The notes beneath the pieces were generated by a model. That model made no database searches. It was not told the origin of the DNA and was given only the letters and a program-made list of their open reading frames with translations. From the NCBI GenBank assembly GCA_018902385.1, contig JABSSW010000010.1:434001-498000 (forward strand): 64,000 nucleotides of DNA. Direction: 5' to 3'. The translations under genes were made by a program, and so were the position numbers. The first letter of the stretch is position 1. The number at the start of each line of letters is the position of its first letter. Of this stretch, positions 13,904 to 37,777 are shown piece by piece. The DNA is from Physcia stellaris (lineage: Eukaryota; Ascomycota; Lecanoromycetes; Caliciales; Physciaceae).

Positions 13904-14672
13904 TTAGGGAGTCTTGTGCTCAACATCTCTACGCATGAAGAACAAATGCGGTTCACGTCCGCCTGGGAATTTTTCTTTGAGCTCGAACTTCATCCGCTTG
14001 ACTACTTGAAAGCCATGTTTCTCATACACTGGTCTTCCACTGACAGTGGACTCGACAAAGATCTAGAGAGATATCAATCAGCAATAGTAAATCATGTGTC
14101 AGCCGAAGAGTGTACTTGACGAAAGTCCGTCTTGTCCGCAAAACCAAGTCCCCAATTCACCAGCATAGAGCCCGCACCACGTCCTTGCCATTTCGGATCA
14201 ACAGCAAGGATATCAAGCACTGTTTCTCCTGTCAGCCACACTACCTCATTCCTTCAACTTTAGAAACAAGAATTTACGTACCGAAAATCTTCCTCCCCAC
14301 CTCCCTCAACGCCTCGCTTCTTGAGCTATAGTACTGCGTCAACAGGTCTTTGACGTACGCTCTTTCCTCTTCATCCTCTCTCAGGCCTCCTTCATCTCCA
14401 ACATCCCCCACCTTAACTTCTTCGTGTAAAATCAGCCATTTCGCTACACCTACAATCTCTCCGCTCTCCTCGTCTACGGCTTTGATGAAGTAGGTATTCG
14501 GATCAGACTGCTGATCGCAGAGAAGTTTGGCGCCGTGAGTGTGTCCCGCGGGTGTATCATGTTTGGGAAAGAAGGCGTCGACGATGGGTTGGATGTGCTG
14601 GAACGTGTCGGAGATGATGTGGAAAACGCGGTCGAAATCGGCGGCCTGGCATGGAGCGACGGAGAACGGCAT
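13904..14672 (-). CDS. GNAT-family N-acetyltransferase
   Basis: Three exons, 14672-14282, 14228-14116 and 14062-13904, with two 53-nt introns that keep the frame, give 220 residues. The N-terminal half begins MPFSVAPCQAADFDRVF, typical of fungal GNAT proteins, and continues through SGEIVGVAKWLI (beta strand 4). The acetyl-CoA site follows in exon 2: VLDILAVDPKWQGRGAGSML, carrying the Q-x-x-G-x-G pyrophosphate-binding loop. Exon 3 supplies the last part, with YEKHGFQVV and a charged end. It is expected to move an acetyl group from acetyl-CoA to an amine, in the cytosol. The substrate cannot be told from sequence. The gene looks whole. Confidence 0.85.
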
Positions 14673-15481
14673 TGTAGCAAAATTTTCTAGCTCGGCGGGT
14701 GGGAGATTTTATTTTGGTCGCCGATAGTGAAGATCTGATTGGATGTGTGCTTATGATTTAGGATGGCTGGAGAGCAGTAAGCAAGACGTTCATTCAGTGT
14801 TTCTCTCGGTATCTCTATCCAATATCGTACATTGGGCCTACTTACATTAAACATACTTTTCCCGCTCGTCTTATTATCATGCCGCATTACGGCATGGATT
14901 GGTACGGCGAATGACGTCACTCATACTCTAGTAAATCCTTCAGGATCACCGACTAACGGATCTGCACTGTTGAGGAATGTAAAAAGGAGATATACGATAA
15001 AACCCATCTCCACTATGCTCATATCCTTAAGTTGTGTAACTCGACATCAATAATGAGCGGGGCGGGACATTACATGGGATCCTAGCGCACAGGTGCTGTG
15101 ATAAAGCAGGTAAATGGTCGGCATTACCAAAGTCCATGTTAAGATTATGAGAGGCCAATCTATCTATGGCGTTGAGTTCTTCGAAGTCTCCCGAGATACC
15201 CTGCATATTTTGCTCGACAGGTCCCACAGGTCGGCGTACATCCTAGTGTCCAAAAGTCGGTAATAAATCATGATGTCCATGTCGCCGCTCATGGTCAGTA
15301 TTACCCCCATAGTGTCTCTTGGTGCTCTTCCATCGGCTAAAGATGGTGCTTCTTGATTCGCTGGAATGCGAAGATCAGAGTATTGGCCTACCCCTAATTG
15401 CCAATCATTGACCTGTTCTCCAGCCACCTTGCGAAGGATACGACATGATTTCATCGAGCGTTTTGGATCGAACCACCGTAC
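14673..15481. other. Intergenic, with a minus-strand open frame of doubtful status
   Basis: A minus-strand frame at 15164-15454 lies just downstream of the next gene. It could be a decayed or spliced continuation of that gene, but it shows no known domain. Nothing else was seen. Confidence 0.35.
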
Positions 15482-16013
15482 TCAATTCTGTCTGGGGATC
15501 AGGTCGGCCTTCTGATGCAAACATGGAATGATGTTCCGGATGTGTCCGTAAAGCTGCTGAAGTTCGGTTTGCCCTCCATCACTTTCCCATATACCTATTT
15601 TAAGGTCAGTCTTGTCCTTTAAAGTATCTGATGGCTTGATCACAACAGAACCTTCGGCAGGATCCTGCGACAAAGCCGTCATGACCTCCATTATCACTCC
15701 TTCCGGCTCTTTCAGGAGCTTTTCTATCCCCTCACGAATATGTTCAAAATTGTTGAGCCTTGCGTCCACGGAGCCTTGACCATCGTCGAAGGCGCCGACG
15801 TGGGAAGCCCATACTCGGAGACGTCCTAGCTGTCCAATTCGAGCGTCAGTATTTTGCTCCACCAACAAATCAGACAATGGAATTTACCTCATCGCTCCAT
15901 TCAGCCGGAGAGACCTGCTTGCGGTATTCAAGTGGAGAGGCTTTCGCTGCTTCCACCATCTTTTTGAATGAGCGCAGGCAAGCCTTGATCAGATCCCGAA
16001 ATGGTGAGGTCAT
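15482..16013 (-). CDS. Short protein with AcuF/zinc-finger-type fungal N-terminal domain
   Basis: Two exons, 16013-15888 and 15829-15482, joined across a 58-nt intron, give 157 residues. Exon 1 reads MTSPFRDLIKACLRSFKKMV and ends SPAEWSDE. Exon 2 opens LGRLRVWASHVGAFDDG, then SVDARL, then HIREGIEKLLKEP, and later TELQQLYGHIRNIIPCL. This is the helical N-terminal domain found in many fungal proteins annotated as AcuF-like oxidoreductases or C2H2 zinc-finger proteins. Those are normally several hundred residues long, and the downstream zinc-finger part is absent here. The gene is therefore likely truncated, or the rest has decayed at 15164-15454. The molecular function of the domain is not established. 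Confidence 0.55.
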
Positions 16014-16977
16014 GCTTTGTGCTAGTGATACCTATAAGGTCTGTTGAAATTCGGCAGATACACGCTCTATGCGAGGTTCGATCGTGATCACAACCTCCTT
16101 GGTCGCTCGGAATGCCTGCCGAAAGAAAATAACAAATTGCTAAGGGAAAAGAGAGAGGCGATTTCCGTTCTTTAAGTAGTGAAAATCTCGGCGACCGTGC
16201 GCAGTAACTCTGAAACGTTGTGCATCGTCGATCCTGCAGTTTTATCACAAAAGATCCCCTGTGTACGGCATTTTGATTCATGCATCATAAAATCACCCTG
16301 GAGATACACAGCTTCGCCCCTCGTGTCTCAATGAATGCAACGGAAAGTCTGCTATCACCAATATCGTTTTATTGCCCTAATAGTGCTGCTTAGATGTGAT
16401 CGGTTCACCATGGCTGGGCAAAGATCCGAGTCACACCTAGAATGCATAGAGATTTCCACTTAAATAACTGACCAGACCCAAGATTCGAGTATGGTGCACA
16501 TGATATTCATCGCTAATTCTCAAACCAGGCTGAGCGCAGTCGAGAGGCCAAACAAACTACCATTTACACAGCTTGCGGACCGTGTTTGTGTTTACTTCAG
16601 CAATAAACAGGTACGAACGCCGACTGCTTTTGTACTAAAGAATGCTCTTCCTACGCAGCCCAACGAAAAGGTTTCCTAACATCGGATTATAATAAGATTA
16701 GAAGCGCAAGGCTACCTCAGAATTCTCGGCTAAGGCGAGGGAAACATAGCAGGAAGCAATGATTGAAAATGATCAGATTTCACAACTGTACAGCGTCGAT
16801 TACCGGAGAACGAATACTAACACTAGTACATTTCATGCTAATGTGCTACATTCACAGCCCAATTGCCCATCATCTTCTGGCTGAAACGACTTCTGCGAGA
16901 CAAGAGCTCTGTGGAGCTCGTGATGATTTCCTTCGTCAGTGGAGATCTGATGCTCCTATATGTGAATATAATGGAGG
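16014..16977. other. Intergenic, no gene seen
   Basis: Only short frames without recognisable protein features. Confidence 0.4.
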
Positions 16978-17436
16978 CTAGGAGGCCGTCTTTTTGACTT
17001 CCAACCAGTATTCACCAAAGGTCTTACCCACACAGAACCGAAAGAGGGGGTTGATATTTTGAGCAGTCACTGGATTTTCCACTTTTTCGTGTCGAGGATT
17101 TCGGCTCCAGGTATCGCGGATCCATAATCTCAATTCAAGCCCGATAGTAACGGTATCGAGCATCTTCCTCAAGTCGTCGATGAGCTTGCCCAGGGTCTCG
17201 TCAATGGCGACCATCACCTGCAAACTCATGTCCCCCAATCTGTCTGATTTGTATTTCACACCTATGGGAAGCGTCATTGCTACATAGTTCGGCTTATTGT
17301 GTAGGAAGTGGTATAGGGCTCGAGTTGAGTAATTCGAAGTGTCCATTGATGTCAAATGTTCCAGATTACTCTTATGGAGGGCTTCTTGACCCTTAAGGAG
17401 GGCATCCTGACTCTTACGGGGGTCGTGTTTAGGCAT
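16978..17436 (-). CDS. Small protein, probable distant third member of the unnamed family
   Basis: A 152-residue single-exon frame. The start may be 17436 or the internal MDTSNYSTRALYHFL, which lines up better with the relatives at 4915-5331 and 6199-6582. Shared layout: an aromatic/threonine start, then YVAMTLPIGVKY against STFPVLVYY, then LQVMVAIDETLGKLIDDLRK against NVVICTALENFDDFVKDMRK, and a basic/tryptophan-rich stretch followed by NINPLFRF against NFHTILRML. The resemblance is weak but runs in order. No domain, signal peptide or membrane helix was recognised. Function unknown. Confidence 0.5.
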   Translation of the reverse strand: MPKHDPRKSQDALLKGQEALHKSNLEHLTSMDTSNYSTRALYHFLHNKPNYVAMTLPIGVKYKSDRLGDMSLQVMVAIDETLGKLIDDLRKMLDTVTIGLELRLWIRDTWSRNPRHEKVENPVTAQNINPLFRFCVGKTFGEYWLEVKKTAS

Positions 17437-19039
17437 TGCCGGTATTCTTGAGCGTTAATGCTGATGATTATCTTCACAAAACACAGAAACAAGTGAGAGA
17501 GGATGTTGTTAAGAACGAGCAACAGAGATTGGCCTTTGATATGCTGAAACGATAAGGTGAGCAAACATGTCTTGTGGCAATTTATGATTGCCATAATAAC
17601 GACACGTAATGTCCAGCACATAAAGTAATCAGCATCTTGACATATCAGGGCTTTGTTGTTTGTTCAAAATTTTGGAAATGGTATGCTGTCTGTTTCACGT
17701 ATAATGAAAGCTCAAGTAAATCTACAAAGGTTGGAGCCCGGTCTTCTTACATGTAATACAGCAAACTGCAACCCCATCACCACTAGCTTTCTTCCTGTTC
17801 TTTATTTCCTTCTTTGACCATCTCTACTCCAGATCACTTTGCGCATTGGACAATTCCAGTACCGTAAAGCTGAGCTCTTCCCGCTCAAGCCTCTTTTATC
17901 TCCTTCTCATATTGGCAATAAATCCGTCACGACCTACGGCCAGACAAGTCTATACAAAGACTCTGATAGCTTCAGCAATGGATGCTATTTCCTAACTGGA
18001 ATAATTCGGACGAACACGCCTAAATATGGATAATACGAGCCTGAGAAGACATAAAGTAAGACATCGATGGATCTATCGGTTGTAATCTGGCCCTTTAACC
18101 TCTCATGAGCAACAAGGAGTCTAGTAAGCAAACCGGAATCATGCAAGGAAATTGAGCAAAAAATTTCGTGCTAGAGTTTCCTAGTGTCCCAAGCGGATGC
18201 ACTATCTTAAAATTCCCTTTCAGGGAGGCAGAGCTGAGTATAAAATACCTTCTTTATTTATTCCAAGTCAGACGGACACCTGCATATCCAACATCATGGG
18301 ATTCATTAACAATGCTAGTCATCAATAGCTAAGCGAATCTTAATTATTTTTTCTTTGAGAAGTTTCCAGACGTCAAAATTGTTGGACCGTAAATAAGAAC
18401 CTCATTCAAGCTCTTCAAATATTGCACATGAAACAGCTAGCAAAGTGGATTCTAATTGACCGACCTTGGGCACTTAGTCGTATAAATAGGATGTTCTCAA
18501 GGGCAATGAACAAGTTGTACACAACAGACAAAGCAAAGTTTTCACTTAACATATATGTCATCACTCAAATTATAATTCCATATTTGCGGTATCGATATTC
18601 ATTATGACGGATATGGCCCCTTCAACAAGCCGAGTGAAGAATTCTTGTGAGTCTTCCAGTGACAGCTCTGCCCTGACACGTTGTACCGACACATTGTTTA
18701 AACCGGTCTGAAGTAGGTAAAGAAGCTAGCCAGTGCACACTGTCCGTCTACTGTTTTACGGTGATGAGGGCCATGACAGGAAACGCAGTAGCAGACCTAG
18801 CCTACGCTGTCTCGTGATCACGCAAACGAGAAGCCTTCACAAGGACCAAGAAAATGAGCCATCGCGCTACGTCGTTCCATGTTTGCCCCTTCGTCGACGC
18901 TGTCTGTTTGTGCTATGACTGTATACATTTCCCTCATCAACTCTCTTTCCTCATGAATTATATACCTCGATCGACTCCGCGCTCTCCTCACTCTCCCCCA
19001 TAAACCAATCCCCCAAGACAACACCAATCCAACCACCAA
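17437..19039. other. Intergenic, no gene seen
   Basis: About 1.6 kb with AT-richer stretches near 18280-18600. No frame has recognisable protein features. The last 100 bp is pyrimidine-rich, as expected for the promoter of the following frame. Confidence 0.4.
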
Positions 19040-19465
19040 ATGGATCCTCCGCCCCAAGTCCCCAACCCACCCCCCAACGACGACCCCCAACCCCCGACCC
19101 CGACCCTAACGCTCCCAACCCACCTCCTAGGCCTCCCCTCCACTCTCCGCCCCCTCACCATCTCCCCAAACGAAGACCTCCCCGCCCTCCGTCACCACCT
19201 CCAAACCATATATAAACTACCCCAGCCGCCCACGTTTCAAATCTCTTGGGGCCAGCAGCAGGGGACCGAGAAGCGAGAAGTGCTGACGGGGGAGAATTGG
19301 GGGAGGGTTTTTGAGAGGTTGCGTATGGAGAGGAGAATGAGGATGGGGGTGGGTGGTGGGGTGGGGGTTTTGTTGGTTTGTCCTGGGGTAAGAAAGGGGG
19401 AGGGGGAGAGGGAGAGGGGGGATGAGGAGGGGGGTGGGAGTCTTGGGGGCTGGTTCTGTTTTTGA
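19040..19465 (+). CDS. Proline-rich hypothetical protein with PB1-like core
   Basis: A 141-residue frame beginning MDPPPQVPNPPPNDDPQPP. It has a proline-rich, unstructured start of about 30 residues. The middle reads RPLTISPNEDLPALRHHLQ, then TFQISWGQQ, then VLTGENWGRVFERLRM. The order strand, helix, I-x-W strand, L-x-x-E-N-W recalls a PB1/ubiquitin-like fold, but this is only an impression. The C-terminus is glycine/arginine/glutamate-rich and comes from a G-rich DNA tract, so the true end may differ. Base composition is much more GC-rich than its surroundings. It may be a real small gene or a chance frame in GC-rich sequence. Confidence 0.4.
   Translation: MDPPPQVPNPPPNDDPQPPTPTLTLPTHLLGLPSTLRPLTISPNEDLPALRHHLQTIYKLPQPPTFQISWGQQQGTEKREVLTGENWGRVFERLRMERRMRMGVGGGVGVLLVCPGVRKGEGERERGDEEGGGSLGGWFCF
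19340..19440 (+). repeat. G-rich low-complexity tract (G-quadruplex potential)
   Basis: The plus strand carries many runs of three to five G separated by one to four bases. Examples are GGGGGTGGGTGGTGGGG and, further on, GGGGGAGGGGGAGAGGG. It can form a G-quadruplex in DNA or in the transcript of the overlapping frame. Confidence 0.7.
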
Positions 19466-21332
19466 TAGCGGATTTTACGCACGTTCTTTTTGCGTGATGG
19501 ACTTTTTTCGATACCGACAGGGTAATTACGGAGGAAGAATGTCTGAGTCGTTGTCAATAGACACAGAAGAGGAAATGGGTCGGCTAGTGGATGAGAGAGT
19601 ATATACGTCGGAAGCATGCGCGGAGGTGGAATTTTCTTGGGAAATTGTTACTGCTCCTTTGGTTTTTCTCATGGAAGCAGAAGAATTCCGAGAAAAATTC
19701 CGAGAAAATGGTCATGTCCGAGGTTAAAGTGGTTGACAATGCGGTACACTATAGCATTGAGAAAGAAGACTTGAATCGAGCCACACATCTCGCTGAGTAG
19801 TGTTGGCTGATATACAATGAGTGTTTGAGGTACCCCGAGAGAAAATCTGCCAAAGTTTTAGAAGCAGATGTGTTTTGAACTCGGCGTTAAGGGACAGTGT
19901 CTTGAACACTCACGGAATACTTGCTGTTTGCCAGCACACCACTTTGAATTACTGGGAGAAAGAATAATGAAACTGTCATACTCTCTATCCTGCCTTGTAT
20001 GAACGTATTACATACCTAGTGTTGATTGGGTATGACGCACAACCGCTGACATGGCTCTGACAGGGTGAAGGAGTCTGTTTGCTCCAAAACCTTCGAATCA
20101 ACCGCAAGTACAAGACTCAGTCAAGAAGAAGATATGAACTGTCTCAGTCACAGCGATTATCCACTTAGATCTTCTTCCTCTCGTCAGATACTTACTCTCT
20201 CCAGACCAGCTATTCATCTACTGGAAAGACACCATGGAGGCTTTGCGGAGAGATCATCATGGCCTGCAATGCAATGCATGTCCTCGTCTCTTCAGCGAGA
20301 GTTTGTTGTCCGTTGTTTGGGGTGGTTCGACGCGGATCTGTGTCTACGCGTAATCGATACTACCTATCACTCTAGTCGAGCTTGATACATTCTGATATCG
20401 AATACTTCCAATTATCCAGCGATGGAATTGCCGTTTCAGCACTCGGCGGACTTTTCAAGTGTTCCTGTGATGGTGGCGATAGATGAGCACCTTAGCCAAC
20501 TCATGGTGATCTAGGCCAGATTATGCAGATACTTGATCCACTGAGCTTGAGTATAGTGTTGCGGAACACATTCGATCAATACAGTATAGAGAATCTAAAA
20601 AATGAAAGAATAAATCAATCACTTTTCATCTGCAGGAAGGAAACATGCTACACAATACTTGTAGTTTCCCAGGATTCGACCCGGTTGCCAGAGAAGAATC
20701 CTGAGCGCAAGAAGTATTATAGGGTAAGTCGAGTTTCACTACAGAAGAGGTTGTGGTTTTGTCAGCGCTGCGTTTGTCAAGTACCTTTCGAAACCCATTG
20801 ACAGACTCGGAACGTATACTATTAGTAGGCTTCTTCGTAGCTGTGTGAGCTTTTGGGTATCCTAAGGAGGAAAAGCAGCAGCGTACAACGACGGCGAACG
20901 GCTACATTCAGGGACGTTGAAAATTATGCTCAACATGGCAGCTAGAAGCTGAGTGAAGGACGTACGGCATATCATTGCGTCTCATACTGCGCTTGTGTTA
21001 GCCTTTTGTCATTCTCCTTACATATTTTGACTCTCCCACACTCTGTTGGGAATTAAGATCCTACAGACAATTGGATCCCAGAAGTCTACTAACACTGGTA
21101 TAAGTAAGTGCTGACGGAGCCTTTTTTCAATTGGACACGCAGGGGTAGACATAGTACATCAAAGTGACGAGCCAAAGTATGGAAAGGCCAATTCAGTAGG
21201 ATAGGCACAGCATACCATGAAGATGTGAGACATGTTCAAAAGACAACACGGAGCAACAAGCTCGAGATGCAGAGGATAGATGACGAGCTGATGACAGAAA
21301 GAGATACATCTATGGCTTACCATTCAAGAGCG
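19466..21332. other. Intergenic, no convincing gene
   Basis: Several short open frames occur (for example near 20065-20385) but none has recognisable domains, splice support or codon regularity. Confidence 0.4.
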
Positions 21333-21572: not shown

Positions 21573-21895
21573 CCTGTGCGCTACGAAAGAGGCGACACTA
21601 CTAGGAGTAAAGCACAGTCTTTTCGCGTGAATTAAAATGAGTAAAAGCCATCTCAAGGGAGGCCCCGAGTTTTACTGAGGTCCTGACCCACAATTATATT
21701 TTGTCCTCAATGTTGAGAGACTATTGAGGGTCGCCGCAATTATTTTTATCGAGCATTTTTCATCAATTCCGAATGGGACTTGGACGTTGCACGAGCTGAG
21801 ACTTCGCCTGTCGATCGAGACATCTAAGGCAGTGCTAACTGGGTAAGGATGTACGTTGTCCAGCCTCTCATCGCCTTGTACTCCGTAGATCGACT

Positions 21896-22129
21896 TGTTG
21901 GAGTGTGCAATATCCAGGGCCTTTCAGGGTCCTAGTCACGTGTTATTCAGAATCCAGATGATCAGACCATTCAGAATCCAACCACTTGATTCAAGATTCA
22001 ATCATCAATAACGCATATCGCATATATCGCATATGTCGCATGTATTAATACTCAATGTTTTCACGTAAATATTTGTTAATTAATTAATCAATTCAATGTT
22101 TGAATCGATGTGCTTTAATTTTTTTAACA
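21896..22129 (+). repeat. 5' LTR of Copia element 1
   Basis: 234 bp, starting TGTTGGAGTGTGCAAT and ending TAACA. The left half keeps normal composition (CCAGGGCC). The right half is AT-shifted. It is directly followed by ATTATGAACTCGA, which resembles the string after the 5' LTR of the second Copia element and is a probable primer binding site. Confidence 0.9.
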
Positions 22130-25100
22130 AATTATGAACTCGAATCGTGCTCTCGTTTTTAATAATTTGTAAATCACGATTTATTGAGTAAATCATCGAT
22201 TTTACACATATTGTTTCAATAAAATGCAATCGAAGAATTTCAACAACGCAATCACACAAATTCAACAACAAAACATTTTTTAATTTATTAATTCATTCAA
22301 AAATCTTTTTACAACATCATGAGAAAAGACTTTGCAATATACAAAATTACGAAATTGAAAAAAGTCGAAAATTTCATTTTGTGAGTCGAAAAGTTGAAAT
22401 TTTGTTTCATATTTTTTCAACTTTGATTTTACATTTTTGAAATAGAAAAAAAATCATTTTCATTTGTCAAATCAAATTTACGCAAAAAAAACGACATCGA
22501 ACGTGTTATGATCAAAATTGAACAAACTATTTACGATGCAAAATACAAACAATACAAAAAAAATCACAAAAAATGAATCATTGTTCACAACAAAATTTGT
22601 GCAACAATGCATATTTCGTTTGAACAAAAATTTCGCTCACACGTCAAAAACATGAAAAACGACACGAAAATTTTTTTGAAATTCAAAAATTTTTACGAAA
22701 CGATCGATTTGATCATTATCGATTTCGTTGTAAAGAAAATTTGCAACAAATCGTTTGTCGATTTCAAAAACGTTGACGATTGAACAAAACATTTGAAAAA
22801 ATAAAAAAATGAAATTAATGCGATCGACGAAATTTTTTTTGTTTGATTTATAAACAATTGTTTTCGTATGAATTTAATTAAAAATTTGAATTCGTACATG
22901 TTTCATTTTATTCACGAAATCAAATTACGTGAAACGATATTGATTATCGACGAAATGATCAAAACGTTGATCGATCAAAACAAACGAAATATTCACATAA
23001 AAGAAAATCGAAATTCAGTTCGAGCGATCAAAAACAATCGAAACAAATCAATCAAATTTTCGAAAAACGATGAAAATAAAAATAAAAATATAAACAAAAA
23101 AAATCGTGATATTGATTCATGCGAAATGTGTGAATTTTTTATTCATGACAAATCACATTGTTTTTATCATAACAAATTTCAACGCACTTTTGATTGAAAA
23201 TTTTACGAAATCAAAATGCATTTGATCGTGAATTGATCAAACAAAATCAATTTCGTATCAATCAACAAAATCGACAAAATCAAAAAAAATGATAAAATCA
23301 AACGAATCAAATTTGACGATTTTACAATTTCGATTTTCAAATCAGACTTTTCAATCGAAAATTCAATTTTTTTAAATTTCGAAAATAATACGTTTTCGAT
23401 TACATCATCTCGTCATTTCGCAATGAACAAAGTCAAACGTATTCGATTCAACAATTTCATTTTTCAAATCAATTGTGCAACACGCATTGCAAAATCAACA
23501 ATTTTATTCAAAAATTCGAATTTTTTTTTTGATAACGAGACGAACATTCATTTGTGTTACAACAAAAAATTGTTTCACGAATTGAAACTTTTCGCAACGA
23601 TCAAAATCGTTGAAGTTGTTGACAACGCATTGTTGACGATCAAAAAAATCGAATTCATTATATTTGAATTTAATATTGACGACAAACGAGTTTGCAACAT
23701 CATTATCGACGTTGAATACGTTTTTGATTTTGAATTCAATTTTATATCAATTGATACATTCGAGAAAAAGTCATGCGAAATCGTTGTCAAACAAAATCGT
23801 TTCAAAATCATTGACGAAAACGACGATAAGATTTTCATGATCGATACACGTCAAAAAGAAAAGAAAAATAACTCATATATTTTCGATATGTGAAAATTTG
23901 TCATTCGAACACGATTTGCGAAAACTTTTATTTTTTGAAGTCAATAACATCGTCGATTTGAACATTTCAATTTTCGCGATGTCAAAAAATTTACAACAAT
24001 GAATTTCATCGACGACTTCGAATGTTTCAAATTCGAAAAACTCGATTCACAGCACGATAAATGTGAATCATGCGTTATGAACAAAATGCATCGAACATCA
24101 AATCATACGACAATGAGAACAAATTCAACGAAACGTGCTACACGAAAGAGACAAAAATTTCATACGAATTTGATCGAAAAAAATCACATTGTTCGAATTT
24201 CTCGAGATAAACGTTACGCAATTGTATTCGTGAACGATTATATCGATTACATTTGATTGTATTTGATCAAAAACAAATTCGACTTCGTCATCGTTTTCAA
24301 AAACTTTATTCATATGATCAAAGTCAAGAAATTAACAATCGAATTCTTTCGAATGAACAACGTCAAAAAAAATATCAACAAAATCATCGAAACACTCATG
24401 ATCGAGCACGACATTCAATGAAAATTCATTGTTTCGAATAATTCACATCAAAATGAAATGTCAAAACGAACATTTTGTATTATTTTCAATAAAGTACGTT
24501 TCATGTTGTACGATTCGAAATTATTCAAAACGTTTTAAAAGAAGACAATTCATACGATTGTTTATTTAAAAAACATCAATTTTATTTTTTCGAGCAATAT
24601 GATATCGCATGAGATTTGAAATGATCGAAAATCGAATTTATTCAATTTACATTCGTTCGAAACGTTGTGCTTCGCGAAAGTGAAACATATCAAAAAATTT
24701 GACGAACAAAAAATCAAAAAATATTTTTTAAATTACGAAATTTCGAATCAATATCGTATATGAAAATTTATTAAAAATCAAATCATTAAAGCAATTCATG
24801 TGATGTTTGACGAATATATCAAATTCGAAATCGAAAAAAAATTGAAAATTACAGTATTTTTGATTTTCGTTTTTTGATTGATCAAACAAATCAAAATTTT
24901 TTAAATAATCAATGTACGATTGCAAATATTGCAAATTCGAACGATTTGAATTCGAATTTTGCAAAGTCAAATGTTGAAAAACATAATTTCGATAATTTCG
25001 ACGATCATCAAAATTCAATTGAATCAATTTCATCGATTGAATTAATTATACTCATCGAATCACAAAAATTTCGTAAATTCATTCGCATGCAAATTCAATT

Positions 25101-26883
25101 TGAGCGTAATTTCGTTCATCAACAAAATTTTGAAACAGAAATCATGATGATGAAAAAATTGTTGACTTCGAAACACATCGCGAAAATGTCAAAATTGCGA
25201 AACAAATCAAGCAATTCAAAATCATCGATTTGAAATATAAAATATCGCAAAATTGACAAAAAATTCAATTTCATTCGAATAAAAAACGATGAATTCAAAT
25301 TACGAAAAAGAAATTCGAACATCACAAACACAACGACATTTGAAAGTTGTTATTATCGTTTTCAAAAATCAACGTCATCAAAAATCGTTGAGTATTCTCA
25401 ATCAAACGTGATTTTAACGATGAAATCGTCAAATACAAAACTCGTTGAATGACGAAAAATTTTCTACAAATTGTTGAAAAAAATTACTTCGAAATTTACT
25501 TTGAAATCGTTAAATTAATGATTTGAAAATGTATATTTGCATTGATTACGAAAAACGATTAAAAAATGCATCACGTTGACGTCGTTATTGCGTTTTTTGA
25601 ATCAAATTTCAAAATGAAACAATGAATACAACAATCGTTTGATTTCGAAAAAAAAATCAAAATTCGTTTGTTCGTTGAAAAAAGCATTGTATGAATTAAA
25701 GCAATTTTTTCGCGAATGATATGATTGTTCGAAAAAATATTTCATTTCATTGAATTACATTTGTTTGTTTGTAAATAATTGCGTTTTCGTACATTTTATT
25801 GACATCATATTGTCAATTTACGTTGACGATTTTCTATTAATCAATCTCATTATCAATGACATCGATCAAATTAAAATCGATTTGAACAAACATTTTCGTA
25901 TCAAAAATCTCGATGAGATACATTTTTATTTTGAAATCAAAATCATCAAAAATCGCAAAAATCGAATCATGTGACTCACGCAAAAAACGTTTATCAAACA
26001 ATTTGTCAAAAATTATGATTTTGAAAGTTGCAAATCAACGTCAATTTCAATGAAATCGTATTCATTCAAGACGAATATTTATAACGATGAGATGTATCGA
26101 AACATCGAAAAACGAAAAACATTTTTTCGCAAAATTATTGAGTTTGATCAATGATTCACTTGAATAACTCGTTCAGATATCGTCGTCGCGATCAACAAAC
26201 TTTCGAAGTACGTTTGTAATTCAACATCAATTTATATGCATGTTGTCATGTATATCGTTCGATATTTATCGAACATTTCGAATTTGAATTTACGATTTGA
26301 ATCAAAAACGAATCACAACGAAAAATTGATGAATTATACAAATGCATCATATGCAAAATGCGAAAATATTTTTCGTTTTATTTTTGATTATGTATTTATG
26401 TTTTGAAATGATTTCGTGTCTCATTTTTTCAAACGACAAAATATCGTTGTCATTTCAACGATCGAAATCGAATATATTGATCAATGCAATGCGAACAAAA
26501 AAATTTATTTTTTGATCGTCGTATTCGATGCATTGAAATATTTCATCGAAAATTTCATCGATTTACGAGCAAACAATCAAGTCGTCATCGCATTGATTCA
26601 CAATTTCGTCAATCATCAAAAAATTAAACATATCGCAATCAAATATCACAAAATCAAAAAATTGATGATCGAAAAAGTCATTCAATTGATTTACATCAAT
26701 ATCAAAAACATGATGATCGACGATTTCATCAAATTTTTTACATTTGCATTATTTCGACGTTTTGTGAACATGTTTGAACTCGTTAACGAAAAAATTAATT
26801 GAATCAAAACGATTTCAAAACAATGATTTTATTAAATATTGTTGCGAATAAATGCTTGATGATTCTGTTTTATTGAATGAGAG

Positions 26884-27117
26884 TGTTGAAGTGTGCAATA
26901 TTCAAAATTTTTCAAAATTTTAATCACGTGTTATTCAAAATTCAAATGAACAAATCATTCAAAGTTCAATCATTTGATTCAGAATTCAATCATCAATAAC
27001 GCATATCGCATATATCGCATATGTCGCATGTATTAGTACTCAATGCTCCCACGTAGATATCTGTTAGTTAGTTAATCAATTCAATGCCTGGATCGGTGTG
27101 CTCTAGCTCTTCTAACA
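26884..27117 (+). repeat. 3' LTR of Copia element 1
   Basis: 234 bp, the direct repeat of 21896-22129. Here the left half is AT-shifted and the right half is normal, the mirror image of the 5' LTR. It is followed by the target duplication CGACT. Confidence 0.9.
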
Positions 27118-27623
27118 CGACTAGTTGCATTGAAGCAGCCTTACCAAAAACAGGGAGATGTATCCCACTGACGACTCCCAAATTCTTCAGACAGAAAATC
27201 ACCCAACGAATCAGCTGCAAATGATTGCTTACTCAAGATCTTTATAAGGCTGCAGGGCTCTTTGATTAGCGACCACTGAAACACAGCGACTGAAGGCAAC
27301 CATAAACGCCGGAGGGTTCGACCAATTGCTTTGAAAACCATATCATTGCAGGCGCAACACCCACACCCTGGGTCCAGCTAATCCTCTGTTACCGGAAAGC
27401 TGGAAGGCTCTAATTTCCTTGATGATTCCCAGCTGTATCATTGTTTGATTGCTAAAGAGTCTTTCTGCGGCTTAGTACGAAGGAGTTGAGAAGCTTGCAG
27501 TGGGGCTCTGTCTCTTGATGTGATTGGGGCTGGCTGCGATTGAGTACGACAGATCTTCAAGCTGATAAGCAGCGATTCGAGCGACGATCAAGAGGAAAAG
27601 ACTCGGTTGCTGTTTCCTACATA
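27118..27623. other. Intergenic, no gene seen
   Basis: Ordinary composition resumes exactly at the LTR end. No recognisable coding content. Confidence 0.4.
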
Positions 27624-28016
27624 CAGTAAACCCTCGTTACAGGAAGTCGGATTATAAGGAGTTTCGCTTTACAAGGAGTGCTAGACGTCGAAATCCTGAT
27701 TTTTTGGTGTAATCATCGGAGTTTCGGCCTACAGGGAGTACTCCGATAGATTTGACGAAACTCCTTATAATGCGACTAGGAAATCACCAAAATCCATCAA
27801 AATTGCTCGATTTTGGCGTGATTTTCAAGGTTTTGTTAGGGCTATGATAGGTTTTGTCAGGGTTCATTAAAGTTTTTAGGGTTATGCTAGGGTTATACTG
27901 TAAAATGTAGGGTTACAGCTTAACCCTGATTTTCGCGGACACGGCTTATAAGGAGTGTCGGGTTACAAGGAGTTCGAGGCTTCGGAATTTCGACTCCCTG
28001 TAACGAGGGTTTACTG
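27624..28016. mobile_element. MITE of Fot/pogo (Tc1-mariner) type
   Basis: A 393-bp element without coding capacity. Both ends carry the same terminal inverted repeat, CAGTAAACCCTCGTTACAGG followed by (A/G)AGTCG, about 26 bp with one mismatch. It is flanked by TA on each side (27622-27623 and 28017-28018), the target duplication of the Tc1-mariner superfamily. The TIR start CAGTAAACCCTCGTTA resembles that of fungal Fot1/pogo transposons. The interior has short repeats of TTATAAGGAGT and AGGGTTA. It is a non-autonomous element that would need a transposase from elsewhere. It looks structurally whole. Confidence 0.9.
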
Positions 28017-28302
28017 TAGTACTTACTCGGTGTTTTCGTCGAATTACGTCAGCCAAGCACCGCCACTGTGCACAGCCTCCTATGCAGCCTTACCAGATGC
28101 CTTGATCAGAGTCTACCTTACAGTCTTCTTTCCTTCGCTATTGTTCTTAACATTCCCATCAAACATCTCCTGTCGTGTTAATCTTTTGGTAATTGATTGC
28201 ATGCGTTGGTACCTTTCCGTTGATTTTGGGAGAAAGCATTGAAAAGCATGCCCGTCCTAGATCGCTGTGTGTTGCATGAACTGAGAGATTCCATGATCTG
28301 CC

Positions 28303-31300
28303 GCTAATAATTCTCAGATAGCCCCATCAAACAGTGGTGCATCGTCACGACGGCATGTTTCGCCACGGCAGCCTATTGACTGGAACAGAGCTCTACAGGA
28401 GGAGAAGATTGTATATGCCGATGATGAAAATCAATCAGATCTTCGAAGGTCGCACTCGCCCCAGCCACCAGTTGATTGGGAACAGGTGATCTTGGATGCA
28501 GACGCTCATGTTACCGCAATGGGTGAGTTGATGCTCTCAGACGCCAGCTGCAAGCGCAATTTGAAAGAAGCTGCAAACCACTATGGTCGAGCACACTTCT
28601 GCTCCATCATTCAACAGATCCTGCGAGCTGGTATCCAGAACTTTGAAGACAGTGCGCCACCCGAAGAATTAAAAGGCAATGCTGTTTATCAGTGTTTTCG
28701 TCTCAACAACGATGCTCTTAGTGAGTGGTTGTTCGCTAGACTGGGAAGTGCCCGTGATATCCCCAGGAGCAAGGGTGAGTGATACTTTCCTGACGTACTT
28801 AGCCGATGGCTGACCGAAACCAGCCTTACGGTATCGCAAGAAGAGCGATCGAATCATAGCAGAAGCCCTATTCAGGCAGATTTCCGAGATTCTTTCGGAT
28901 CATCTTAGTGCTGATGACCCTATGCGGCATATAGAGTCCATCTTAGAAACGTTAGATATTGATGGGGTCAATGAGGCCGTCTTCTATACCACATGGGATC
29001 CCAGACCATACGCTCATGAGATGGACGAGTCGCAAAGTCTAGGTCTATGATTACATTCACTGCTACAGTCGACTTGGCCTGGGCTACGAGTAGCAAGGAA
29101 TACTTGGAGAAATTCTGGCCAGAAACTGGGGTGAAAACACTAAAAGCCATCGAAAGAGTCATGAAATCTAACGGAAGAAACTTCGTTTTCCAAGATACCC
29201 GAGGGATCCACAAGGTAGTCTTATCCGGTGATGAAGCCTTGACAGAAGTACACGTCCGGGGATCCAAGTCCGAGATTGTACAAACGGCTCAACAACTGGC
29301 CTGGATGATGAGTGCTTTTCAGACTCAAAGAATTAATGATCAGCCTAGGAGAATCTACTCACAGTTCAGGATCAAGGATCTTGGCGACCACAAATTTATC
29401 CTGGAGCAATCGCCACTAAACGAGGCACCCGATAGCCTTGCCCCTTGTTGGCTGCCGATGTTGCACGGTAGCGTAATCGCACAGGGATTCCCGACCCCAC
29501 CGATCGGAATAGAGAAAGGAGCTGAGATGTCCCTAGCTGCAATCAAAATCCTAGCTGGTGTCGAGTACCCTGTCTACCTGGAAGGCGTCACTTTCCTGAG
29601 GGGGTGGTCAACTCTCTTATATCCAGTACGAGCCTCCAAGGACTTCAGCTTGGTTCAGTGGCATATGGTCGAATCCGACGAGCCAGACGACGAGCGCTTG
29701 AAACCTAATAAGCAGTCTGTAAATGTGTCTAACTGGAAGGACGTTGGGCTTGACTCCCTGCGAAGACTGAGATCCTTTGTCGGTTACTGCAGTAACGCGA
29801 ATATTCACGTGGGAACCGAGAGCTTCGATGTGCAGGTTCCAGAGGAGAAATCTGGTGCATCATCCGCCAAGAGTCGGTGGCTGTGGGGCAATAAGATAAC
29901 AATCAGTATAGCTTCCAGTGGTATCGGCGCCGCTGGCCCTGAAGTTGGCGGCGAAATGGGACTCCACAAGAAAGCTAGGGCTAGCATAACAGAGAGCACT
30001 GACCCCAGTAGGGTACTAGTCCGATCTGCAGACACTCCTGTTGTACTTTACGATGTTCCTGCTGGCACTGGATGGTTAGTGCCGGAGATCAACGCTGCCT
30101 TACACATTGCCCGGTCTTGGCTTCTGGAACGGGGAGACCTTGCTAAGGCGGAGAAAAGCCAGATACCGTTGCCACCAATTACAGAAGATGGAGGCCGAGC
30201 CGCTCAGCGGACGATCAGGAACAACAGAGGACACAGGTTAAAGTATGGTGACGAGGATCTGTCATGGAGTTTCTACGATACTGTGAACGACAGTGTAAGG
30301 CTACTTCGAGCCTGCAGAGAGACCCAAGTGCGCGAGGAATCATCTGAGTCGGGGCCTGGTTAGCTTCCTGGTTCCATTCGCCTAGGCTGTACGGATGGGA
30401 CATTGCTGATCTGGTAGAAGGAAGAGAAAGTACGCCAAGAAAAGAAGTGACGGTACGCAGAAACCCCAAAACTAAATGGCTCAGTGCTATAGCGAATCAT
30501 CCCGATATTTTGGTCCTCTTCTGCAATAACATCCAGGCTCCAATTCAGCCAGTGGATCCAGATACAATTTGCCGTAAATGGAACCCGATGCCGGGTGGCG
30601 AGAACTACCTCGTGGCTTCCGTGCGGTCTTTGAAGGCGTTAGCGAATTATTGCAACGGGTCTCGGAATCTACGAAAGCTAGCTGATGACTGTTATTGGAT
30701 CCAACCACTTGGGAGCAATCCATGGGGGCCTTGTGACTTCAGCTCCAAGCACGGATGTGATCGGATGCAGTAACTGGGAGACGGCGCCTCCAATCGCACA
30801 ATAAACGTTTGCGAAGATGGTGCTGTCGTCTTCGGAAAACTTGGCCCTCCAGCCACGAAATGTCGACGGCCCATATATCTCAATTCAAGAAAACGTGAAT
30901 CTATTCCTAGCAGCGTTCCAATGAAGAATAAAGGCAAAGCAACAGATGGCGAAAGTTTTCAAGTTGGCTCGGCTCGAGCCAAGACGGCCAAGAGAAAGTC
31001 ACAAAAAGCTAAAGAAGACGAGGATGAAAACTCCTCACAGGAAGAAGCGTCAAATAAATTCATACGTCCAAACACGAGCCGTACGAAAAAGTCTCAACAG
31101 CAGCGCAAAGATGCAGTCAGTGAGGACGAGGAAGATCTCTCATCACAAAACCCCTCCGATGCAGAGCAATTAGAAGAGAACTCCTCTGCTTCCAATACCG
31201 ATGAATCGGCAACTTCAGAAGCAGAGACGCTCGAGCAGGACGACTCCGATACAGAATCTACCACCGTGCGTACGGGACTGGAAGATGAACCATCTACTGC

Positions 31301-31556
31301 AGAACCCGACAACATGTCCAAAGAGAACAATCCGACAGAAGACAACCCAGCGGTGAGACGCCTTGTGGATGAAAAATTCCGTGAAGAAGAAGACGCACTC
31401 CTGAAAGCTATGGTCCATCTAGAAAGAAATGCGAAAGAGGGTTTACAGTTGTACCATGAGTACGCTGGTAAAGTAGAGCAGAAGCAGGCTGTCAAGGCTC
31501 TGTTCGATGAGATGGCGGGCGTTGTTGAGTCGACGAGGGAGAAATTTGATTCTTGA
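28303..31556 (+). pseudogene. Decayed member of a large fungal-only family (unnamed)
   Basis: The pieces follow one protein in order. The first is 28323-28776, containing PVDWEQVILDADAHV; its true start is not found. After an intron of about 50 nt (GTGAGT..CCAG) comes 28824-29049. The main block is 29047-30363: ITFTATVDLAWATS, EIVQTAQQLAWMMSAFQ, GFPTPPIG, RSFVGYCSNANIHVG and PVVLYDVPAGTGWLVPE, all hallmarks of a very common Pezizomycotina family often encoded near NLRs. The last block is 30430-31556: LYGWDIADLVEGRES, the IQPVDPDTICRKW block and an acidic, coiled-coil tail. Three lesions are visible in this host gene: a one-base frame change near 29020-29045, another frame change near 30345-30370, and a stop at 30771-30773 followed by open frame to 31556. 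Unusual introns could explain some of these. Function of the family is unknown. Confidence 0.65.
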
Positions 31557-32251
31557 TCAGCGATGTTTTCGAGAGGTCTTGCATGTGAAGTGAAATTTGG
31601 GATATTCATGAGGTGGAAATATATCTGTCATAACGATTTCCAGCGGATTTTCATGGCCTGGCACTAAGTGATGCTAATTGTTGAAGTTTAGCTCTGGGAG
31701 ATCTGTGGATGCCCGACTCGGGACGAAATTAGAAGGTTCGTTCCAAGGACTGTTTCCAGCGGATATCTCATGATCTAGCACCTAGTGATGCTAATTATTG
31801 AAGTTTAGCCCCGAGAGATCCGTGAACGCCGGACTGGGGACGGAACCAAAAATACTCCATATATGTTGATGCCGTCAGTTGTGGCATGAACAACACCTGC
31901 ACAGTCGTTCTTGACTGTCGACTCTAAAAGCAATATTCCGCCCCATTGTTCGTCTAGCTTTAATCATGAGTCGAAAAACCTTGGAAGGTCAGGGGAGAGA
32001 TGCATCAACGGAGACTCGAAATCCAGTCTCGTCGATGGCAACGACATATTCTTACCCTGAAATCATCGATGCTTTCGAATCATGAGCTTTGTCTTTTGGT
32101 ATCAATACATCAGGGCTACCAGTACGCGCACCCTCCATTCCGGTATGCGCATCCCCCCTGCCCTACCCCTACGGCTAAACCAACTTTTTTTGTAATCGTG
32201 GGTCAGGACCGCAACAAAACTCGGGGCCTCCTCCCTTTGATTTTGGTGCAG
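31557..32251. other. Intergenic with a tandem duplication
   Basis: No gene seen. It holds the 116-bp-period duplication at 31638-31850, listed separately. Confidence 0.5.
31638..31850 (+). repeat. Tandem duplication with 116-bp period
   Basis: Two copies, starting at 31638 and 31754, both open TTCCAGCGGAT. They share AGTGATGCTAATT, TTGAAGTTTAGC and GAGATC(T/C)GTG in the same order, with about 80-85% identity by eye over ~97 bp. They do not encode anything recognisable. It is an old local duplication. Confidence 0.75.
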
Positions 32252-32256
32252 TGCTG

Positions 32257-32520
32257 ACTCGAAACAACGGTAACATCCTACCCCCCAGGCTATACAGGCT
32301 CGAAACACCAGGCCGTTATATCGTAAGACTGGTGATTTCGTCAATAATAGATTACACCCGCAGATGCGATATATGCGATACGCATTACATGCGATGTATC
32401 AGACTGTTGTTGCATACGTTACAACAACAGATCAACGTGTATATATATCGCTTTTTGCAGATCAATAAATAAAATCTCAAGCAATGCAATTCAGTCATTC
32501 AGAATCATTTTTTACGAAGT
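32257..32520 (+). repeat. 5' LTR of Copia element 2
   Basis: 264 bp from ACTCGAAACAACGG to ACGAAGT. The ends are ACT..AGT rather than TG..CA if the TGCTG target duplication is placed correctly. The left part is normal in composition (CCCCCCAGGC); the right ~80 bp is AT-shifted. Followed by GATTATGAGTTCGAG, the probable primer binding site. Confidence 0.85.
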
Positions 32521-35500
32521 GATTATGAGTTCGAGTGATCGTTAATCTGAACTATATTTTTGATATACGTTATCTAATTTTTCAACACGTTATTGTTTCA
32601 AATATTCAAATCGTTACATTTTTTTTTATTTTCACAAAAGTTCAATTGAGATATTTCTCGAAATATCGATCAGCAAATTTCACTATTTTACGCAATGATC
32701 GCTGACGAAATGAAAAACGATAAATTCAAATTTTCTAAACTCGCAAAAGCTCAAAACTATAAAAAATGAAATAAAAACATGATTAACGCATTACAAATTG
32801 TTGATGTATGAAATTTTGTCATTGATATTAAGCGTGACTTTTTCAAGCGTGAAACATTTCTTATTTTCGAGCAACAAAAAAATCAGAATATCAAACAGAA
32901 CATTTATGACGAAAAATGTTTCAAAACACGTGAACGTATCGTGATCATGTGCACGTCGAACGTTCAAATCATGATCAATTTTGACGACGAATCGAAAAAA
33001 ATGTGAAATTTTCTGAAAATTCGATTCGAGTCAATTGATTGAATCAACAAGTGAGCGATCATGAATCGTTTCGAGAAATTTCATTATAACGAGATCAAAA
33101 ACATGATGATTTACAACGAAACGTTAACGAAATTCAAACAAAAAATCATCGATCTCAATATCAGCATGAAAAATGCATTTGTCATCAAAATTTTGAACAA
33201 ATTGTTTTTTGACTTTCACACGTTTTTCGCGATCAAAAACAATGAAACTCGCATCGATAAAAAATTCTCTGAATTCGAGAAATTGATGCAACATCTAGAA
33301 GAGAAAAAAAATCGATTGAAGCAAAAAAAAGTCATTGATATGACTCGAATCGATCAAAATTTTAACGACGAAAACGATAAAGACGATCGAGAAAATCGAA
33401 ATACTCGAGAAAATGATAATCGCGATCGTGAAAAAAATGATAAAAATGATTTTGAAAATTTCAGAAATGAAAATTGTATCAATTGCTACATCAATCACGA
33501 ACTGAATAACAACAAGAAACATTGTTTTCACGTCAACAAAAAGTGTCGCAATTGCAAAAAAATGAATCATATCGAGAAAAATTGTCGTCAGAAAAAAAAT
33601 GATCGATACGACAAATTCGAACAAAACATCGAGTCAAAAAATTCGAAAAATTCGAAATTCACTATTTTCGCAACGCATATCGATTTGATTAATTTCAATG
33701 CAATTGAATTGATCATTGATCGTTTGTTCGATTCGTCAACAAACATTTGAATTTTGAATTCAAATGTCATTCAACATTGCTCGAACAATAAAAATTTATT
33801 TAAAAATTTGAAATCAGCAAATGACGTTGCTCGTACAACAAATGATGAAATATTGAAAATAAAAATCATTGACAACGTGTCAATCGAATTGCTCAATGAA
33901 AAAATATTGATTTTGACGAATGTTCATTATTTATCGAAATTGATTTCGAATTTGATCAATACATCATGTTTGCATCATCGAAAATTCAGTTTTACATATT
34001 CGATTCAAAATTTTTGCAATATTTTCAATGAAAATCATTTTGTGATTCAAATCGATATAATCAACAATGTTTACATTTTTCGATCGATGATGCGAACAAA
34101 TGTTTTCATCGAGAAATTTTCAACATCAACGTCGATCGTTATGCAAAATATTTTCGTTTTCGTTAAATCAACGAACGATTTGCAAATTTGATATTATCGC
34201 TTTGTGCATTTTAAATATCAAAACGTTATCAAAAACGTCAACAAAATGAAAAACATGAACGAAATTCATGATTCGTTTTCAAATATGTTTTGTGAGTTTT
34301 GCATGAAAAAACGTCAACAAATTGAAATATTTAAAATATCACAAACAAAAACGAAAAGATTTCTGACGAAAATTCACGTCGATATTGATGAATCACTTTT
34401 TACAACGTGAAAAAATAACAAAATATTCGTTTTGATCAAATGCGACGACACAGAAATGTTGTTCATTTATTCATCGAAATTGAAATCACAAATATATTTT
34501 ATCGTGATTGAATTCAGAATTTGAATTGAATTTCAATCAAATAAAAAATTGAAAATTGTCAAATTTGAAAATGAATTTTTTATCAATGCGTTCAACAATT
34601 GATTCAAAAAAATTGACGTTCAATGAAAACAATTCGTTTCGAATACATTTCAACAAAATTCGAAAATCGAAAAAATCATGTATATCGTGATATTCGTTGT
34701 ACGTTCGATCATGAAGAACATGCGATTGTCGTTCGATCTATGAAATCTCATTGTTGAAAAAATGATTTATACGAAAAATAGAATTGTCATTTTCAATGAA
34801 AATGATGAAAATGCGATAACGTTTTACGAAGCAATTAACGAAATACGTTCAAACGTTTTTAATTTTCGAACATTGAGATGCAAAGTTTACACGCACGTCT
34901 CGAAAACAATTTTTCGTCACAAATTTGACGATCGTTTTTGAAAGAATATTCATGTGAGTTATGAAAATAACAATCAATGAAAAATATACAATTTTCGAAT
35001 TCGAAAAATTCATTTCACTAGAAACGTTCGATTCGACGAGAATTATTTCTATTACGAGAAAAATCATGCGTCGTTTGAATTTTTCGCGAAGACGAACGAC
35101 GAGTTCGAAATAATTGATTTTTGAATCAATGAAAACGACGACGAGTTGAATTCAAAATTTCATCGTCGTCGAGTTACGAATGAAATCAATGACGCAATTG
35201 ATTCAAAATTCGAAAAAAATGAAAATGAGAAATTTGCGAAAATTTTCGAGAATTCGCTGATTCAATCATACGTTGATTCAAATTTTTCGAATTTGAACGA
35301 TTCGATTTTTGATGCAAAATTTGAACGATTTCAAATTTTTTTTATTTCAAACAATTCGATTTCGAAAAATACGATGATTTTATCGAAACAAATAAAATCA
35401 TCGAGCGATTTTGTTTTTGACGATCAAACGTCACAATTTGAAAAATTTTGAAAAAACGAATTTTTTGCGAATTTTGCAAAATTTTCGATCACGATCATCA

Positions 35501-37512
35501 CTCGTCGAAAAAAAATTAAAAAATTTGTTTTTTCAATTGATCGCGAAACTCGCATTTTCAAAAATAAAATTTCTCGATTTGATTACAAAAAATTGCAAAT
35601 TTCACGTCAATTTCAATCAAAAAAACGTGCAAACGTGATCAACAATACGTACAATGCGAAACAAATTTCGAAATTTTATATTCACATGATGCGCGCTTTA
35701 CATGCACTCAACAATGATGAAAATTTCGATTTCGATCATATTTCGAAATCGTTAAATTATCGCGAAACTCGAAAATCATTTCATTGAAAAAAATAAAAAA
35801 CGATCATGAAAATTGAAATGATTTTACTCGTCGAAAACGAAATTTGAAAATTGATCAAACGCTCATTTGAACGTGTTGTTATTACAAAGCGTTGAGTGTT
35901 CAAATTGAAATATGATGTAAACGATTGTATTTTTCGTTACAAAACGCGTTGAATGATTTATGAATACAAACAAAAAAAAAACGTTGATTACAATTCTATT
36001 TGAATTGAAATTGTAAAATCGACATCATTCAGAATTTTATTCGCATTCGTTGCAAAACGACGTCTGCACGCAAAACAAATGAATATCGTGACGATTTTTT
36101 TGTACAATTTTCTGAACGAGAATGTGTACGTTACACAATTTGAGAAATTCGTTGAAAACTCAACACTCGTTTGTCATTTGATCAAAATTTTGTACGATTT
36201 GAAACAAACATTTCGCGTGTGATATGAAATTATAAATACGTTTTTGAAGAAACTCGATTTTGTAATTTTCGATGCGAATCATAGCGTTTTTATTTCAAAA
36301 AATGACAAAACGTATGTGATCGTGTACGTTGATGATTTATTGATCATTAGTGATTTCATGAAATTTATCGATTTCATGAAACAAAAACTCGATAAACGAT
36401 TTAAAATGATTGATTTGAATTTTGCGCAACATTATTTTGATATCGAAATCGTTCGAAACGACGATTCGATTTTGTTTCGTCAAATCATTTATCTTCGAAA
36501 AGTTCTGAAAAGATTTGACATGAATAAATGTAAAATCGTCGACTTTTCATGAATTCAAATTTTGCAAATGTAATGATGTTCGCAAAAAAAAATCAACAAA
36601 CGCATTTTAATATTTTGTATTGATACGATTCAACGATTGAATCGTTGTTGTATGCAACATCGATGATTCGATTTAATTTGAATTACGCATTCTCGATAAT
36701 CAATCGATATTGTTCGAATTTAAATTTCACACATGTTGCAATATTGTTGCGTATTTTTCGATACGTTCAAAATACATTGAATCATGACATTGAGTACGAA
36801 TTTGAGCAAAATTTTTTTCACGATTATTTTGATGCAAATTGAGTCAATTCAATTGACGATCGAAAATTTCATGAAAGTTTTATTTTTTTTTTTGCAAACG
36901 ATTTTGTATTGTGATATTTCAAACGTCAAAACACGATCGTTTTATCGAGTTGCGAATTCGAATATTATGCATTCGTTGAAGCGAACAAAAAGATCGTGTG
37001 ATTTCGTCAATTTTTTATGAAATTGAATTGCATGTCAAATTCGAAATCGAGTTTGATTTATGCAAACAATTAAAAAACAATTGCATTGTTCGAAAATTCT
37101 GAACATTATAAACGCACGAAGCATATTGTCAACAAATAACATTGAATTCGTCAAACAATCGAAAAGCAAACTATTCAAATGAAATACGTATCGATTGTTT
37201 TCATGATCGCAAATGATTTGACAAAATTTTTAAATTCGAATGTTTTTCAGATGTTTTGAAACTCATAAACATGATTTATTGATCGATTTATTTTGCAGAC
37301 ATTATCATTTTTTTGCTCGTTTACACGCAAAAAATAATTAATCATATTGAAAAATTGTTTGTGCATGAAAAAATGCGCATGAATCATCAACACACTCATT
37401 TGAAAAACAAAAATTAAAATTTGACTCGTGTTGATTAATCAGCAAAACTTGATATAATCGAAAATTGCATTTTTGATGATTAAATGTTTAAAAAGAGTAT
37501 GTTGAGTGAAAA

Positions 37513-37777
37513 ACTCGAAACAACGATAACATTTTATTTTTCAAATTATACAGACTCGAAACATCAAATCGTTATATCGTAAAATTGATGATTTCGTCAA
37601 TAATAAATTACATTCGCATATGCGATATATGCGATACGCATTACATGCGATGTATCAGACTGTTGTTGCATACGTTACAACAACAGATCAAACGTGTATA
37701 TATATCGTCTTCTGCAGATCAGTAGATAGAATCTCAAGCAATGCAATTCAGTCACCCAGAATCACTTCCTACGAAGT
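37513..37777 (+). repeat. 3' LTR of Copia element 2
   Basis: 265 bp, the direct repeat of 32257-32520. The left part is AT-shifted and the right part is normal, the mirror image of the 5' LTR. The core with CGCATATGCGATATATGCG and ACGTTACAACAACAG is nearly identical in both. Confidence 0.85.

Follow-up and report, generated by a model that had tools for sequence, protein, structure and literature searches.

In this study, we relate the mutations of two Copia retrotransposons of Physcia stellaris to those of other repeats in its genome (43.97 Mb, 147 contigs). Both elements lie in a 64,000-nucleotide stretch of contig JABSSW010000010.1 (C10:434001-498000), hereafter the window, to which coordinates refer unless a contig is named. 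A mutator resembling repeat-induced point mutation (RIP), directed at repeats and turning C into T, probably acts or has acted on the duplicated DNA of this fungus, with the target order CpC > CpT >> CpA > CpG. The context rule holds on both strands, in Copia, RVT_1 and DDE_1 sequences and in a relic of ribosomal DNA (rDNA); mutated tracts have their borders within the element, and the mutational load is far above background. Our evidence base consists of matches to transposon domains, relatives of these and the one rDNA relic, and is a sample of repeats rather than a scan of the whole genome. The elements and their tracts, with their long terminal repeats (LTRs), are as follows.

21896-27117, + strand: Copia element 1, with LTRs at 21896-22129 and 26884-27117 and RVT_2 pieces at C10:459365-460052
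21983-27047, no strand: CC/GG-free mutated tract of element 1, ending within both LTRs
32257-37777, + strand: Copia element 2, with LTRs at 32257-32520 and 37513-37777
32359-37754, no strand: CC/GG-free mutated tract of element 2, delimited by CC/GG composition

Element 1 is flanked on both sides by CGACT (21891-21895 and 27118-27122). For each element the two LTRs were aligned, and every C/T or G/A difference was assigned by the 3′ base of the C in the copy retaining it. Element 1 yielded 42 such differences (17 CpC, 25 CpT) and one transversion; element 2, whose LTRs were aligned as two ungapped pieces flanking a 1-base indel, yielded 22 + 11 (18 CpC, 15 CpT) and again one transversion. A sequence-only reading of this DNA had claimed that the LTRs changed only at C before C or T (CpY), and this was so for all 75 differences (35 CpC, 40 CpT). 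None fell at CpA or CpG in the two pairs, despite 77 CpA and 44 CpG cytosines being available; where both copies retained the cytosine and its 3′ neighbour, the counts were CpA 77, CpG 44, CpT 15 and CpC 0 (Fisher test, 75/15 versus 0/121, p = 1.9e-42). With only two transversions across both pairs, the elements must be young and their differences nearly all of one kind. The mutated copy alternates along the length of the LTR, as expected if mutation leaves out only the outermost parts of each element.

Composition of the interiors agrees with the same reading, which had described CC/GG as nearly absent, CT/AG as scarce and CA/TG and CG as abundant. Dinucleotide counts gave no CC or GG at all in 22130-26883 or in 32521-37512, and observed/expected ratios of 0.18-0.30 for CT and AG. 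CpG is not reduced, and CA+TG per 2 kb amount to 252-290 in bins with mutated DNA, similar to the 257-310 of gene bins. The mutated tracts of both elements begin and end within them, and the flanks of element 1 retain 90-100 CC+GG per kb. In a genome search, no second copy was found of its left flank beyond pieces of 35-53 bases, nor of its right flank beyond a 397-base stretch at 27622-28018. This stretch is itself a repeat, only 500 bases away from element 1, yet it is unmutated (45 CC+GG); that agrees with a length threshold without proving one, and long copies close to identity have escaped as well (see below). It has near-identical inverted ends, resembling a miniature inverted-repeat transposable element, and several relatives elsewhere at 70-90% identity. 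The tract ends inside the elements, the spared flanks of element 1 and the affected rDNA relic together place the mutation in repeated DNA, as in RIP.

Beyond the window, we retrieved 30 loci among 137 RVT_2 matches. CC observed/expected was at most 0.50 in 25 of the 30 (element 2 included) and 0.79-0.97 in the other five, L005, L006, L008, L009 and L020. Comparing little-mutated with mutated copies returned the order CpC > CpT >> CpA > CpG in all four element families. For the L006 and L005 sets, 25 and 26 loci were compared and counted where the alignment spanned at least 1400 columns at no less than 70% identity. Twelve copies set against L006, a reference lightly mutated itself (4 TGA in its domain), had changed at 2471/2551 CpC, 3029/3647 CpT, 336/4638 CpA and 91/3618 CpG (96.9, 83.1, 7.2 and 2.5%). 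Three copies compared with L005, element 2 among them, gave 1306/1364, 1021/1228, 95/1411 and 58/1259 in the same order (95.7, 83.1, 6.7 and 4.6%), three compared with L008 gave 826/881, 744/1038, 111/1155 and 58/946 (93.8, 71.7, 9.6 and 6.1%), and three RVT_1 copies compared with L047 gave 1243/1458, 710/1266, 63/1326 and 34/1370 (85.3, 56.1, 4.8 and 2.5%). The young copy L012 had changes at 226/241 CpC, 214/356 CpT, 6/448 CpA and 0/344 CpG and one transversion in 3.1 kb. Among four DDE_1 loci, CC was depleted in L050 and L051 (observed/expected 0.02 and 0.00) and not in L049 and L052 (0.95 and 0.89). Throughout, C:G to T:A transitions occur on both strands and other changes are rare, as RIP would have it; a preference for CpA with raised TpA/ApT, a typical RIP trait if not one common to all reports, was looked for in these comparisons and not found.

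Ordinary divergence accounts for some of the change at CpA and CpG in the L005 and L008 sets, since each pair also holds 35-54 transversions and counting in the opposite direction gives a similar figure at CpG (for element 2, 19/424 against 23/422). The most heavily mutated copy, L034, has changed at 77/379 CpA versus 13/300 CpG, which makes CpA a real but weak third target. The proposed CpY-only rule stands in the two LTR pairs, the four families, the rDNA relic and the stop codons discussed below, and needs amending on two counts: CpC is hit clearly more than CpT, and CpA is weakly affected in heavily mutated copies. Neither CpA or CpG changes as common as those at CpY, nor a classical bias in other repeats, was found in the copies retrieved.

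The direction of change could be fixed independently with L044 (G000:C41:44438-47552), a mutated lone rDNA copy and the sole 5.8S match found in the assembly, where no unmutated 5.8S was found. Scored in ten alignment blocks at positions that the Rfam consensus marks as strongly conserved, it has changed at 26/28 CpC, 16/32 CpT, 0/24 CpA and 0/34 CpG, and at 3/214 conserved A/T positions. As L044 is not a transposon, it also speaks against mechanisms tied to retrotransposon cDNA. The approximately 650 bases between the 3′ end of its small-subunit (SSU) gene and 5.8S are unusually long, possibly owing to an intron near the SSU end.

Under a CpY rule, stop codons should nearly always arise from TGG, which becomes TGA. 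Across the matches listed for three transposon domain families, in-frame stops numbered 694 TGA, 137 TAA and 6 TAG. These comprise 401, 101 and 3 in 137 RVT_2 matches, 249, 33 and 3 in 149 of the 150 RVT_1 matches listed (150 scored of 527 candidates; the one outside the tally holds one TGA), and 44, 3 and 0 in 10 DDE_1 matches. The RVT_2 domain of element 2 (35836-36540) carries 5 in-frame TGA; against a relative, 11 of 13 TGG codons of the element had become TGA and 2 TAA, while CAA was kept in 11/11 cases and CAG became a stop in 1/11. Such a TGA-rich spectrum in transposon domains offers a simple diagnostic of the rule.

The base 5′ of the C has little effect, and rates are alike on both strands (five pairs). 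Over 13 pairs and with a purine following, the rate of change was lower for CCC (307/389) than for CC (2242/2372). If the 3′ base that a C has at the time determines how it is read, 316/389 would be predicted for CCC, near the observed value; the same model predicts 1168 for CCT, where 1248 of 1333 were observed, an incomplete fit. Whether the neighbour has been converted to T appears to matter, suggesting that conversion is stepwise or takes place in repeated rounds.

To discern what might act in this way, we searched the genome with the PF00145 profile and obtained three genes, L001, L002 and L003. L002 scored 608.6 bits against a DNA (cytosine-5)-methyltransferase in the PDB (chain 9bap_A), from which we take it to be DIM-2-like; its match to the BAH domain does not reach the Pfam cut-off. 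L001 and L003 both contain the motifs SPPCQ and QIGNAVPP and have diverged to 39.7% identity over 267 residues. A RID-class methyltransferase, expected where RIP operates, is represented by two RID-like genes, the class label coming from these motifs. These two old paralogues have a common intron position after an ...IAS motif.

We consider it reasonably likely that the process is RIP with its base recognition turned over, in that an enzyme of the RID class, possibly one of the two old paralogues, would read a pyrimidine on the 3′ side of the C, with CpC favoured, in place of an adenine. It would then work like RIP with an almost inverted target rule. A RID-class C5-DNA methyltransferase would recognise cytosines with a 3′ pyrimidine in duplicated DNA, and these would be converted to T, directly or via 5-methylcytosine. 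The most likely candidate is one of the two RID-like paralogues, which lie on contigs C5 and C6. How a C is read seems to depend on the 3′ base present at the time, and stepwise or repeated conversion may leave CCC partly protected. The sequence-only reading had left the choice between a deaminase and a methylase of different neighbour preference; since it is the 3′ neighbour of the C that matters, and the 5′ neighbour little, the choice narrows towards a C5-methyltransferase of RID-like type, which fits better than the known deaminases that read the 5′ base.

Slow decay of 5-methylcytosine, in which DIM-2-type methylation of repeats at CpY is followed by spontaneous or mitotic deamination, is unlikely. 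It can draw on the DIM-2-like gene, on a rise of CpT and CpA loss with overall load, and on Dim2-dependent mutation in repeats reported for Zymoseptoria (PMC8016269). Yet it would be too slow for L012, with 440/597 CpY cytosines changed beside one transversion in 3.1 kb and no CpG changed out of 344, and for LTR pairs with 75 CpY changes against two transversions. Decay of CpG methylation was likewise rejected, given CpG changes of 0/344 in L012 and 91/3618 pooled in the L006 set. More doubtful still is a mutator other than RID directed to repeats, for example an unknown cytosine deaminase reading the 3′ base. The link of mutation to RID is inferential, and the base specificity is unlike the orders of Neurospora crassa and Trichoderma reesei (PMC5496416), both of which would leave room for such an enzyme; against it stand the two RID-like genes, with their SPPCQ and QIGNAVPP motifs, and the rDNA relic, which counts against editing of cDNA from retrotransposons. 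The 5′ base, by which AID/APOBEC enzymes choose their target, has little effect here, and editing of that type was rejected on this ground. Damage to dipyrimidines in poorly repaired chromatin, by ultraviolet light or otherwise, is scarcely credible: CC and CT are dipyrimidines, but so is TC before A or G, and the rates of 2/182 at TCA and 0/124 at TCG in L012 reject the ultraviolet signature of C-to-T change at TpC, while DNA flanking the tracts is spared.

Several points weigh against or complicate RIP with turned-over base recognition. We assume the RID identity of L001 and L003 from their motifs rather than from comparison with a known RID. Multi-copy elements have remained untouched, namely L008/L009/L020 (95-97% identical) and L046/L047 (95%), with differences showing no clear context bias, and indicate a process that is incomplete, episodic or no longer acting. 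Each of these families has at least 39 further matches (69-79% or 69-81% identity, pieces counted, 40 candidates scored); three were examined per family, and all six proved to be mutated in the same contexts. The picture is less clean in older LTR pairs, as seen in six further elements (L035-L040): by the 3′ base of the changed C, L040 gave C15 T16 A5 G1, L036 C3 T14 A2 G2, L039 T7 A3 G2 and L035 T5 A5 G1; the best pair of L038, just 73% identical, gave G14 A11 T9, and no clean pair was obtained in L037. Self-matches of L035-L040 at 57-67% identity with A/G contexts were read as alignments of unrelated AT-rich sequence and left uncounted. Within the element 1 family, copies that are themselves mutated differ from one another at 2-12% of CpA sites (for example, 68/572 against L042). 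Finally, according to a survey of 1,239 species published in 2025, a preference for CpA is common to RIP-like defences (PMC12543289); it is absent here, and this genome is a clear exception to that conclusion.

Two more tracts, at the edges of the window, have a related composition.

1-1356, no strand: CC/GG-free tract at the left window edge, following the same rule by composition
59856-64000, no strand: third mutated tract, with 4 CC/GG in all and CpT only partly depleted, continuing past the window

For the region 59900-64000, counts were CC 1 and GG 3, and ratios CT 0.61 and AG 0.36, a weaker CpT depletion than in the element interiors. A protein with NB-ARC and TPR matches (57755-59425) ends approximately 430 bases before the third tract. 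Elsewhere in the window, two adjacent F-box-like genes (503 and 564 aa) occupy 8671-12722 on the + strand, and a 42-base piece at 21655-21696 has about 18 near matches (88-95%) across the genome. A scan with the bacterial code found no tRNA in the window, this piece included.

The LTR pairs, the families, the rDNA relic and the stops of three domain families bear out the view that the rule is unlike that of Neurospora. In common with RIP in N. crassa and T. reesei, C:G is changed to T:A in repeats on both strands and the genome holds RID and DIM-2 type genes. The reported orders are CpA > CpT > CpG > CpC in N. crassa and CpA about equal to CpG, then CpT, then CpC, in T. reesei (PMC5496416), whereas here CpC is first rather than last and CpA third. 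CpT is a major target in the CpT-biased RIP of Botrytis, Sclerotinia, Magnaporthe and also Anisogramma, with RID/Masc1 in one or two copies (PMC4352252); there it goes with CpA, a context that is almost spared in the present genome, where CpC comes first. Alignments of N. crassa Tad1 (PMC2621366) and of the control fungi in PMC7882544 likewise have CpT as a major signal. Changes at CpC are mentioned for Monilinia, as double mutations of CpC to TpT (PMC8959702), where the classical CpA to TpA is nevertheless the main pattern expected. The CpG/TpCpG bias of basidiomycete repeats shares a repeat-associated C-to-T change with a context rule, yet targets the CpG (PMC4352252; PMC4014442) that is most spared here. 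In a Rhizoctonia table CpC changes are densest, but these are heterozygous SNPs rather than repeat targeting (PMC4014442). We did not find CpC-first or CpY-only RIP described in the extracts of the RIP literature surveyed, and priority is uncertain, as the older survey of Clutterbuck 2011 lies outside this comparison.

Standard RIP indices move against the classical sense, with values of 0.35 and 1.55 in element 1 versus 0.70 and 1.27 in genes (2001-21000), and the composite index is -1.2 in both element interiors versus -0.6 in genes. As these indices respond to gain of TpA and loss of CpA, an index scan would score the tracts as unmutated. If true, a turned-over RIP would break the proposed kingdom-wide CpA rule; surveys based on indices would be blind to it, and species scored as free of RIP may use a CpY rule. 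A natural case with CpC at the head of the order and CpA in third place, alongside two RID-like genes, makes it possible to test how RIP chooses the base that it changes, and if the RID enzyme governs that choice.

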